From Paenalkalicoccus suaedae (lineage in GTDB: Bacteria > Bacillota > Bacilli > Bacillales > Salisediminibacteriaceae), in contig NZ_CP041372.2 of the NCBI RefSeq assembly GCF_006965545.2, forward strand, positions 3,348,001-3,412,000: DNA of 64,000 nucleotides, given 5' to 3'. A program made the translations under genes and the position numbers. The notes beneath the pieces are model-generated. The model searched no databases, had not been told where the DNA came from, and saw nothing but the letters and a program-made list of their open reading frames with translations. Shown here piece after piece: positions 10,360-15,036 of the stretch (within the stretch, counting starts at the first letter, position 1; every line of letters begins with the position of its first letter).

Positions 10360-11658
10360 TTAATCATCATCGTCGTCATCGTCATCATCGTCGTCATCGT
10401 CGTCATCGTCGTCGTTTCCTCCATTACGATCGCGCTCGAAATCAATCTCTGAGCCGTTAGCAAAGTCGATCTCGATATCAAACTCGTCCCATGTGCCGAA
10501 CTCGGCAAAGGTGGCTGTTACTCGGGCTAACACCTCATCATTGGAAAGGTTCGGCGATAGTTGCCACTGCGTTAAATAGGTTTCCATTTGACGGATAGCG
10601 GCATCTCCTGTGATGGTCGTATCACGGTCGTTCCGCTCAAACTCAATCTTGGCATAGGCGCCGCCGCGACGGAGCTTGTACTCGAGGTCGACCTCATTGC
10701 CATTCGTGTATTCGATGTCGATATCGAGCTCGCGAATCGTCGTTTGAGTTGGTGCATTCGGTGCGGTCGACGAGCGAATCTCGATCTCCGCGACCGTGCC
10801 GTTAGCAACCAGCGCGGTGATCGGATCGCCCGTGCGTAGCTGATCTGGCGTGATGTAGCGACCATTAAATAGAACGAGCGTCGAATCACGGAGCGTCAAC
10901 GTTTGCGACGTCCCCTCAAGCGTGGTCACCGATAGCTGTCGGTTCGCTGCGTTAACATTTGTGACCGTGCCGCGCACATATTGACTTACCTCTTGGTCCA
11001 AAATCTCCCCGTACGTGCGGTCGAGTAGCGTCGCTGTCTCTGCGCGCGTGACGTTATTGTTTGGCGCAAAGCGTCCATCAGGTAACCCTTCGACAATGCC
11101 ATATTCCGAAGCGACGTTTACATAGCCGATCGCCCCTGACGGAATTTGCGATGCGTCCGTAAATCGCGGCGTCACATTCATTTGCGCGAGCGCCTGCTGC
11201 TCTAGACCGAGTGCGCGGACGAGCATGCTCGCGATCCACACGCGCGAAGCCGGCTCGTTTGCTCGGAGCGTCGACTCGGACGTATCAAATAGGCCCTGTT
11301 CCCGCGCTATCGCTACATATCCATGCCACCATTTTTCCCCATCAGCAGCACTTGTATCGCTGAAGAATAGTGGCGTTGATGCTGGCACGGCCTGTGCCTC
11401 CGCCTCGAGACCCAAGATGCGCACGGCCGTTGCGATCGTCTCGGCCCGCGACACATTCGCCTGCGGCTTAAACGTGTTGTCCGGGTAGCCTTGGAATACC
11501 TCCTTGGCCGCCATCCGCTGCACAAACAGCTCGTACCACGCACCCTGGACCGTATCGCGGAATGACGTCTGGACCGGCGTGCGATCCTCATTCGCAAACA
11601 CCTGCGTCGCAGGAACTAACAATAATATGGTGAGAAACAAGAGTAACACCCTTCGCAT
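10360..11658 (-). CDS. SLH surface protein with YusW-like domain and poly-Asp tail
   Basis: 432 residues from ATG 11658, which has AAGGAGG upstream and begins a clear signal peptide (MRRVLLLFLTILLLVPA). The frame is open upstream to 12150, but that part is only the ATTATCCG array read as codons. Three SLH domains (about 30-220) are followed by a beta domain (VRGTVTNVNAANRQLSV) and a domain resembling the YusW-like family (IELDIEY-type strands, then a helix and TWDEFDIEIDF). The protein ends in 17 consecutive aspartates (10363-10413, mixed GAT/GAC codons). Such a tail could bind divalent cations or the wall, but this is inference. Its own terminator follows. Confidence 0.85.
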   Translation of the reverse strand: MRRVLLLFLTILLLVPATQVFANEDRTPVQTSFRDTVQGAWYELFVQRMAAKEVFQGYPDNTFKPQANVSRAETIATAVRILGLEAEAQAVPASTPLFFSDTSAADGEKWWHGYVAIAREQGLFDTSESTLRANEPASRVWIASMLVRALGLEQQALAQMNVTPRFTDASQIPSGAIGYVNVASEYGIVEGLPDGRFAPNNNVTRAETATLLDRTYGEILDQEVSQYVRGTVTNVNAANRQLSVTTLEGTSQTLTLRDSTLVLFNGRYITPDQLRTGDPITALVANGTVAEIEIRSSTAPNAPTQTTIRELDIDIEYTNGNEVDLEYKLRRGGAYAKIEFERNDRDTTITGDAAIRQMETYLTQWQLSPNLSNDEVLARVTATFAEFGTWDEFDIEIDFANGSEIDFERDRNGGNDDDDDDDDDDDDDDDDD

Positions 11659-11833
11659 GCTATACTTCCTCCTTGTAAGTAAAATACCCAAGTGCCGACG
11701 AAGCGCACGCAGGTTACAGGTATTATACTCCCATCTAGATCGGACGGCGTATGCCATTAGGGGTATTTGTAAGACTGCTAATGTTACTAACATTTTGGGA
11801 ATTGGAGGGGGAATTTTCCTGAAGTAGTGCTTC

Positions 11834-12160
11834 ATTATCCGCTTTCGTGGCTCTATTATCCGAAAACAGCGCTTCATTATCCATTTTCGTGGCTCCATTA
11901 TCCGGAAACAGTGCTTCATTATCCGCTTTCGTGGCTTCATTATCCGAAAACAGCGCTTCATTATCCATTTTCGCGGCTTCATTATTCGAAAACGCTGCTT
12001 CATTATCCGCTTTCGTGGCTCCATTATCCGAAAACAGCGCTTCATTATCCGTTTTCGTGGCTTCATTATCCGAAAACGCTGCTTCATTATCCGCTTTCGT
12101 GGCTCCATTATCCGAAAACGCTGCTTGATTATCCGTTTATGAGGCTCCATTATCCGCTTT
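11834..12160 (+). repeat. ATTATCCG array, 16 units, exact 21-bp period
   Basis: Longest of its type: cores start at 11834 and every 21 bp to 12149 without slippage (one core is ATTATTCG at 11981). Spacers alternate between GAAAACAGCGCTTC-like and GCTTTCGTGGCTCC-like sequences, giving a 42-bp super-period. It occupies the divergent gap between the SLH gene (start 11658) and the NERD gene (start 12294). Open frames across it in several frames arise because 21 is a multiple of three. Confidence 0.95.
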
Positions 12161-13312: not shown

Positions 13313-14167
13313 TTAATGAAGTGCCAGATTATCAACACCACCTACTTCGCGACGGAGTTTTATCAGCGCGCATTTGCGCCAGCTTTTGACGGTTTCGGTG
13401 CTTACTCCACATTGACTCGCGATTTCTCGCTGTTTAAGTCCTTCTATGATGGCGAGCTGGAACCACTGTTGCTCTCGCTTTGAGAGTGTGTGGCGGTGTT
13501 TGTTTAAAAAGTCCTCTAGTAATTCGTTGTCTTCGATGTTGCTGTCGTTTGTACCAGCGAGTTCGTGCATGATGGTTGGCTCGACGCTGACTTGGCGTTG
13601 CTGATGGCGATCGCGTCGCTCGAGCTCCTGCTGGATGCGGCCGCGGACATAGCTTTTTGCATAGGCCGGGAAGTAGCCGCGCCCGGAGTCAAATTTTGTC
13701 CATGCTTCGTGTAATGCGATTCGTCCGATTTGTTCGTATTCGTCGCGGTCGCCGCCTAGATTCCATTTGTTGATAAGTTTGTGGATAAGCGGCATGTAGC
13801 TTTGGCATAGGTCTGTGAATTCGTCGTCTTGATTATCTGCTTGAAGCGTGTCATTTGTGTTGATTGAAAACTGTGAACTGTTTTTGGATAATCGGGTGGC
13901 ATTTTCGGATAATGGTTCGACGTTTTTGGATAATCGTAGCTCCTTTCTGGATAATGTTCCTCTGTTTTCGGATAATCGCAGCTCCTTTCTGGATAATGAT
14001 CCACCATTTCCGGATAATCCACCTTCCTTTCCGGATAATGTTCCATCATTTTCGGATAATGAAGCCCCCTTTCCGGATAACTGCCCTGCCTCACCCTCCA
14101 ACAACCTTACAATCCCATCTAAGTAACTCGAAATATGCGTTAATTCGCCTTGCTTTCCCTCGTGCAT
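13313..14167 (-). CDS. Sigma-70 family RNA polymerase sigma factor with in-frame repeat array
   Basis: 284 residues from ATG 14167 (AGAAGGA upstream). The frame extends to 14314 but the extension lacks a comparable ribosome site. Residues about 110-284 are a compact sigma factor: region 2 (SYMPLIHKLINKWN, DEYEQIGRIALHEAW, FPAYAKSYVRGRIQQEL) and region 4 (LSKREQQWFQ, GLKQREIASQCGVSTETVKS). Residues about 25-94 are ten 7-residue repeats (LSENxxx/LSGKxxx) encoded by an exact 21-bp ATTATCC array. There is no in-frame ATG between the array and region 2 except one inside region 2, so the array appears to be translated. It is divergent from a ComK-like gene; an unusual role in competence or stress control is inference. 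Confidence 0.85.
   Translation of the reverse strand: MHEGKQGELTHISSYLDGIVRLLEGEAGQLSGKGASLSENDGTLSGKEGGLSGNGGSLSRKELRLSENRGTLSRKELRLSKNVEPLSENATRLSKNSSQFSINTNDTLQADNQDDEFTDLCQSYMPLIHKLINKWNLGGDRDEYEQIGRIALHEAWTKFDSGRGYFPAYAKSYVRGRIQQELERRDRHQQRQVSVEPTIMHELAGTNDSNIEDNELLEDFLNKHRHTLSKREQQWFQLAIIEGLKQREIASQCGVSTETVKSWRKCALIKLRREVGGVDNLALH
13886..14095 (-). repeat. ATTATCC array inside the sigma factor gene, 10 units, exact 21-bp
   Basis: Core GGATAAT (+ strand) starts at 13886, 13907, 13928, 13949, 13970, 13991, 14012, 14033, 14054 and 14075. In the gene's reading frame each unit encodes seven residues. It is the same family as the intergenic arrays, read here in the sense direction of the host gene. 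Confidence 0.95.
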
Positions 14168-14485
14168 TGGTCGATCCTTCTCAGAGCGCGCTCTGCTTGT
14201 ATTCCGCGGTAGAGCAAGCATAGCGCGCGATCTCGTCACCTTGCCAACGCCTAAACAACACGTTTCCTCTAAGCAAACGCACGTAATCTCCTGGCGATCG
14301 CATGCAATCAGCACGACCTTTTTACATAAATACTAATATTTTTACAAATTTTATGACTCAAACGAAAGAATCCGTGGTAATATATAGAATATATGAGTGA
14401 CTTAGTAACCCCAATAGGTTACATCCTCATCATTTCTATGCATCTGACAGCACATCATTTGCATAACAAAGGAGGCGCGATCATC
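14168..14485. other. Divergent control region between sigma factor and ComK-like gene
   Basis: Contains the inverted repeat at 14186-14228 and, near 14380-14392, TAATATATAGAAT, a plausible -10 region for the rightward transcript. AT-rich tracts around 14320-14355 could hold further sites, but I cannot assign them. Confidence 0.4.
14186..14228 (-). promoter_or_regulatory. Inverted repeat in the 5' leader of the sigma factor gene
   Basis: GCGCGCT-C-TGCTTG pairs with CAAGCA-T-AGCGCGC around a 15-nt centre (13 paired positions, one mismatch). It lies 18 bp upstream of the sigma start codon, so it could be an operator or an mRNA hairpin near the ribosome site. Confidence 0.5.
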
Positions 14486-14614
14486 GTGCTCGGTACATAC
14501 ATATTCCACCCGACGCAACAACTTATCCAGCAACCCCTTCAGCGCAAATTAGTGAAGGGAGCATCCAGCACATGCACGTACTCGATCACTACACCATCAA
14601 CGCCGACACGATGA
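14486..14614 (+). CDS. Possible leader peptide overlapping the ComK-like gene
   Basis: The strong ribosome site AAAGGAGG (about 14468-14475) has no start codon in the ComK frame behind it, but GTG 14486 starts a 42-residue frame that overlaps the ComK start at 14572 and ends at 14614. This arrangement could couple translation of the two frames. No similarity is recognised; it may be chance. Confidence 0.3.
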   Translation: MLGTYIFHPTQQLIQQPLQRKLVKGASSTCTYSITTPSTPTR

Positions 14615-15036
14615 TTCTGATGCCTGCTTATGACATCAATTACGAATCCATTGTCTATGAAAAACATTCGTGTTACTACGTCAGACAACCAGCCTTTTCG
14701 CTTATAGATGCGGCTTGCCGGATGGCATTCGCGACGTATGAAGGGCGGGTCCAAGCTGTAAAGTCAATGCTACCTTACGAAAAAAAGACGCCAGTTTTGA
14801 TTAGCGAGATCGAACAACTAGCAGTCTTCCCTACGCATTCGCCGCAGAATATGGAGTGTCATTGGGTCTTTCCCCAGCACGTTTTGCAAACGTTGTCACG
14901 CCATGACGGTCAAGCTGATGTTGTCTTCCGCGATGGCTTGACGCTAACGGTGCCCGTATCAAAACGAACCATCGACAATCAGATTTTACGAACAAGCCAC
15001 ATGATGCAGCTCTATGCCCACTACCAGCGGGCATAG
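14572..15036 (+). CDS. comK: ComK-like competence transcription factor
   Basis: 154 residues. It shows the ComK pattern: an early TINADTMILMPAYD, then SLIDAACR, YEGRVQAVK, KKTPVLISE, LAVFPTHSP, and near the end LPVSKRTIDNQILRTS, matching the family's conserved segments in order. ComK binds AT-rich boxes and switches on DNA-uptake genes in Bacillus. It is shorter than B. subtilis ComK, mainly at the ends. ATG 14572 has AAGGGAG ten bases upstream. The divergent neighbour is a sigma factor, so the pair may form a regulatory unit; that is inference. Confidence 0.85.
   Translation: MHVLDHYTINADTMILMPAYDINYESIVYEKHSCYYVRQPAFSLIDAACRMAFATYEGRVQAVKSMLPYEKKTPVLISEIEQLAVFPTHSPQNMECHWVFPQHVLQTLSRHDGQADVVFRDGLTLTVPVSKRTIDNQILRTSHMMQLYAHYQRA

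Follow-up and report, generated by a model that had tools for sequence, protein, structure and literature searches.

A 21-bp ATTATCC repeat array in the reading frame of a predicted, comK-linked sigma factor gene of Paenalkalicoccus suaedae

A predicted sigma-70-family gene of Paenalkalicoccus suaedae contains, between a conserved start and the sigma domain, an array of ten 21-bp units that is of the same kind as the arrays lying between genes in this genome and is absent from the orthologues of related genomes. Judging from these comparisons, an intergenic-type ATTATCC array has probably become coding in this comK-linked gene and been tolerated in frame. The window analysed is a 64,000-nt stretch of contig NZ_CP041372.2 (assembly GCF_006965545.2, positions 3,348,001 to 3,412,000), and all positions below refer to it.

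The sigma factor gene and the array within it

The gene (13313..14167, minus strand) is an intact ORF of 284 aa with its ATG at 14167. Its product is a predicted sigma-70-family member by its region 2 and region 4 domains, which match PF04542 (Sigma70_r2; residues 122–187, 30.3 bits) and PF08281 (Sigma70_r4_2; residues 227–270, 31.9 bits) above the Pfam cut-offs of 24 and 25.7, respectively; the NCBIfam model TIGR02937 (sigma70-ECF) also scores above its cut-off. The sigma domain composed of regions 2 and 4 (13316..13837, minus strand) aligns with profile positions 6–154 of 156 of the PRK06759-type sigma-70 factors (NF005248), but the score of 82.6 bits is below the curated cut-off of 133 for this equivalog, and the window protein has ~110 extra N-terminal residues. 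The gene is single-copy (one sigma domain match in its own genome), and comK (14572..15036, plus strand; Pfam ComK, 1.6e-37) is divergent from it, an arrangement that recurs in many relatives, where a divergent comK precedes the sigma gene. A look-up of the full-ORF protein among genome contigs found no relative.

The array occupies 13871..14080 (minus strand) and is read as ten LSxxxxx heptads (LSGKGAS, LSENDGT, LSGKEGG, LSGNGGS, LSRKELR, LSENRGT, LSRKELR, LSKNVEP, LSENATR, and LSKNSSQ). It is preceded by a non-repeat N-terminal segment, MHEGKQGELTHISSYLDGIVRLLEGEAGQ (14081..14167, minus strand), which has no counterpart in the relatives and no second copy in its own genome, and is followed by a non-repeat linker of 11 aa (13838..13870, minus strand; residues 100–110) leading to the sigma domain. 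A preliminary description of this DNA had reported ten ATTATCC units phased at 21 bp. The core-to-core spacing is indeed exactly 21 bp for all ten, but only nine cores are exact ATTATCC (minus strand; 13886, 13907, 13928, 13949, 13970, 13991, 14012, 14033, and 14054), the tenth being GTTATCC (14075–14081, minus strand). The ~70 repeat residues that it described are also present, at residues 30–99 and thus slightly shifted from its residues 25–94.

Start site and conserved leader

In the relatives, the leader consists, in order, of TACCGCGGAATA, a short gap, a palindrome (the palindromes include GGAAGCGCGCTTCC, GGAGGCGCCTCC, GAAAGCCGGCTTTC, and CCGGTGCGCACCGG), an AGGAG-like ribosome site, and the start codon. 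The window leader follows the same order (TACCGCGGAATACAAG, CAGAGCGCGCTCTG, AGAAGGA, and ATG 14167): TACCGCGGAATA and then the perfect 14-bp palindrome CAGAGCGCGCTCTG lie at 14182..14211 (minus strand), and the Shine-Dalgarno-like AGAAGGA (14175..14181, minus strand), 7 nt before ATG 14167, takes the place of the relatives' AGGAG. The leader at 14182–14211 is shared with loci L010–L038, directly before the ribosome site. A candidate -10 box of the sigma gene, TATGCT, is found at 14217..14222 (minus strand), and a TAtAcT-like hexamer matching it occurs at equal distance in most relatives. That AGAAGGA precedes ATG 14167 had been noted before, and the leader comparison with the orthologues identifies this upstream start as the conserved one.

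Perfect palindromes of at least 12 bp were found in 23 of 28 leaders, and the longest leader palindrome has a mean length of 12.4 bp, compared with 5.0 bp in shuffles. Because nine different sequences are represented among the 23, self-complementarity appears to be kept while the sequence of the palindrome changes. The leader as a whole could function as an operator or as an RNA hairpin; a search of Rfam gave no match above threshold in the sequence, leader included. The leader motif TACCGCGGAA was also considered as a regulon-wide promoter, and this was rejected, since it has only three matches in the genome; of the other two, one is inside an integrase-like ORF and one is in no recognisable promoter of that type.

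In 29 family loci, only a few codons separate the start codon from the EFEE-like residues that open the sigma domain. The distance from the leader motif to the region-2 Met ranges from 72 to 111 bp (median, 93) in the relatives but is 415 bp in the window; for one relative (L022) this measurement picked up a false motif position, and its true leader, read directly, is conserved. The conserved leader precedes the array, at 415 bp from this Met, which places the array after the ancestral start and before region 2.

Only three in-frame start codons follow the leader before the region-2 Met is reached (ATG 14167 and two TTG codons). All three precede the array, and no in-frame ATG, GTG, or TTG is present between the array and region 2. 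The earlier statement that this interval holds no usable in-frame ATG is therefore correct, although it passed over region 2's own first ATG, located at its very start (SYMPLI). Translation might begin there or elsewhere after the array, which would then be untranslated and the upstream open frame accidental. The presence of this ATG, the frequent occurrence of the same Met in the relatives, and the non-coding score of the array (see below) are consistent with such a start, but no Shine-Dalgarno-like sequence precedes the ATG, and initiation at this point would remove residues that the orthologues have. Furthermore, the array is preceded by the conserved leader and start and by coding-like codons, and we consider an untranslated array very unlikely. 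The protein would instead be made at full length from ATG 14167.

Absence of the array from related genomes

A search for the sigma domain covered 60 related genomes, 34 of them other members of the family, and gave matches in 49 of the 60 and, at E<=1e-10, in 29 of the 34. The sigma domain shares 33–52% identity with these 29 family orthologues, none of which contains the array. The preliminary description had proposed this comparison as a check, and the outcome agrees with its expectation, i.e. the array is absent and the N-terminus is short in the family relatives. In the comparison set, a single species stands for the genus.

ATTATCC arrays were detected in 1 of 35 family genomes, namely that of P. 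suaedae itself, and an order-wide sample of 199 genomes yielded one other genome, with a single array match. In total, 94 array-pattern loci were found elsewhere. Among the 15 loci that were read, several turned out to be microsatellites of heptamers or repeats within coding sequence, and real look-alikes are few (in Psychrobacillus and Neobacillus); the Natribacillus locus L053 codes for LDNKVEN heptads. Similar arrays with a 21-bp phase, in which an ATTATCC-based core is fixed while the spacers vary, are present in a few distant Bacilli (L044, L058, and L070, Psychrobacillus sp. OK032; L069 and L081, Neobacillus; and L080, Bacillus sp. V59.32b).

The ATTATCC array family of the genome

ATTATCC occurs 62 times in the 64-kb window, compared with 7 expected occurrences and a maximum of 13 in 100 shuffles, and three cores in phase are found at 208 places genome-wide. 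Twenty array stretches from the genome, together with the arrays of the window, were taken for study. The arrays examined lie between genes, frequently convergent ones, and commonly ~70–200 bp from the nearest gene end. The sigma copy does not share this intergenic position and is the only one located well inside a high-scoring gene; we read the other overlaps between ORFs and arrays as weak run-through ORFs or ORFs over-extended at the 5' end. At 10360–12150, the ORF of an SLH/YusW-domain protein extends 5' through an array, and translation of this protein probably begins past that array, at the signal-peptide Met (MRRVLLLFL).

Apart from its position, the sigma array has the features of the family, i.e. 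an ATTATCC core every 21 bp and divergent spacers. Core identity is 0.97 both in this array and in 28 intergenic array segments, and spacer identity is 0.49 and 0.50, respectively. In the sigma array, the Leu codon of the core is TTA in 10 of 10 units and the Ser codon is TCC in 10 of 10, codons that account for 26% of the Leu and 12% of the Ser codons genome-wide. Because all ten Leu-Ser pairs use TTA-TCC, the core appears to be under constraint at the DNA level or to be homogenised. The orientation of the arrays relative to co-directional neighbouring genes is about even and thus gives no reason to propose that they act at the RNA level.

The window contains ~20 intergenic arrays (7245, 10083, 11829, 16088, 17556, 18540, 22484, 29536, 33814, 36277, 40424, 45285, 47708, 50743, 52907, 56395, 59387, and 61739) with several core words (ATTATCC, ATTAACC, GTGATAACC, TTATGTTCC, TACGGTACAT, AAATGCAC, and TGCGCGA), nearly all of which have a 20–21-bp phase or 103–104-bp units of about five such steps. 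In L134–L153 of the same genome, AAA-type units often take turns with TTT-type units within the ATTATCC arrays (a 42-bp super-unit). Some ATTATCC arrays, the sigma array among them, consist of AAA-type units only.

Coding signal and predicted structure

Coding potential was scored per codon with a hexamer model trained on the long ORFs of the genome. Residues 1–29 score +0.59 in frame and below zero in every other frame; among stop-free intergenic frames 2% score this high, and among the wrong frames of genes none does. The linker (+0.49) and the sigma domain (+0.29) are likewise positive in frame and negative in the other frames, whereas the array scores -0.19 in frame and higher in another frame. 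With positive in-frame scores on either side and a negative score between them, coding-like flanks in one frame surround an array that looks non-coding. An insertion that inactivated or weakened the gene, now on its way to becoming a pseudogene, would also account for a ~300-bp change in the 5' part of a gene present in one copy. However, neither a stop nor a frameshift is present, regions 2 and 4 pass the Pfam thresholds, and the sigma domain retains its coding bias, all of which makes decay of the gene highly improbable.

The LS-frame translation of the sigma array (GRAVY, -1.07) is the most hydrophilic among 26 arrays, the next value being -0.89, and its frame is stop-free, whereas 16 of the 25 other arrays contain at least one stop heptad in that frame. 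In AlphaFold predictions (a single-sequence model with a mean pLDDT of 50), most of the array has a pLDDT of <50 and no regular structure, and helices are placed at residues 5–29 and in the sigma domain. The repeat peptide is thus probably disordered, a weak call from a model of this kind. These properties, together with the predicted helix and coding-like score of the N-terminal segment, could indicate that the repeat was adopted as a part of the protein, serving as a long hydrophilic tether or regulatory arm that connects the new N-terminal helix to region 2 and is adjustable in 7-residue steps. However, the top rank among 26 is marginal and a weak hint of protein-level selection, AAA-type arrays tend to be hydrophilic generally, and others of this type are nearly as hydrophilic. 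Because 9 of the 25 other arrays also lack a stop, the open LS frame alone is unremarkable. Selection on the protein would moreover leave the invariant synonymous sites of the core unexplained, and adoption as a protein part seems unlikely. It is similarly doubtful, and if anything a little more so, that the same stretch serves as both a DNA element, with its invariant core every two helical turns, and a regulatory tether tuned by seven residues at a time. We infer tolerance of the repeat, not selection for its peptide, and place the force that holds the ATTATCC core constant at the level of the DNA.

In the preferred reading, i.e. an intergenic-type array that became coding and is tolerated, the array would have been placed downstream of the ancestral promoter, leader, and start codon of the sigma gene. 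The reading frame would pass through it, each unit being seven codons and the LS frame being stop-free here, and the array may have been tolerated because 21 bp corresponds to seven codons. The product from ATG 14167 would carry ~110 extra residues before region 2, namely a short new N-terminal segment, 70 hydrophilic LSxxxxx residues, and a short linker. Because the 28–29 N-terminal residues and the 11-aa linker are non-repeat sequences, the change exceeded a simple array insertion. The preliminary description had suggested that an intergenic element was turned into a translated repeat domain or that the array acquired a coding function; the sequence comparisons support an intergenic-type element that became coding but do not extend to a functional 'domain'.

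Comparison with known systems and significance

In coding variable-number tandem repeats with a unit that is a multiple of 3, changes in unit number keep the frame, so that the length varies and the protein is retained. Unit changes in the sigma array would likewise keep the frame, but its repeat belongs to a mainly intergenic family and its core is conserved at synonymous sites. Rickettsia palindromic elements (RPEs) are ~150-bp palindromic elements that are inserted in frame into protein-coding genes, nearly half of them being located in ORFs (PMC10969869). The sigma array resembles RPEs in that a DNA element with many genomic copies is found, in frame, within an unrelated gene, whose product would gain a peptide. 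Unlike RPEs, the sigma array consists of phased tandem 21-bp direct repeats rather than a ~150-bp palindrome, and only one of the ~25 ATTATCC arrays examined lies in a gene. The literature was searched for repeat-bearing sigma factors and for Bacillaceae with 21-bp intergenic arrays, and nothing relevant was found. In-frame repeat insertion as such is known; the literature searched yielded no phased tandem array of this kind in a sigma factor.

ATTATCC arrays are numerous in the genome of P. suaedae and absent from the 34 related family genomes searched. The sigma gene, a regulator gene located beside comK, offers a clean case in which non-coding repeat DNA would have turned into protein sequence while the ancestral start can still be identified ahead of it. 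It also separates two forces, since the core is fixed at synonymous sites even within a gene. Because these sites stay fixed, the maintenance of the arrays would act on the DNA, or by homogenisation, and not on the peptide.
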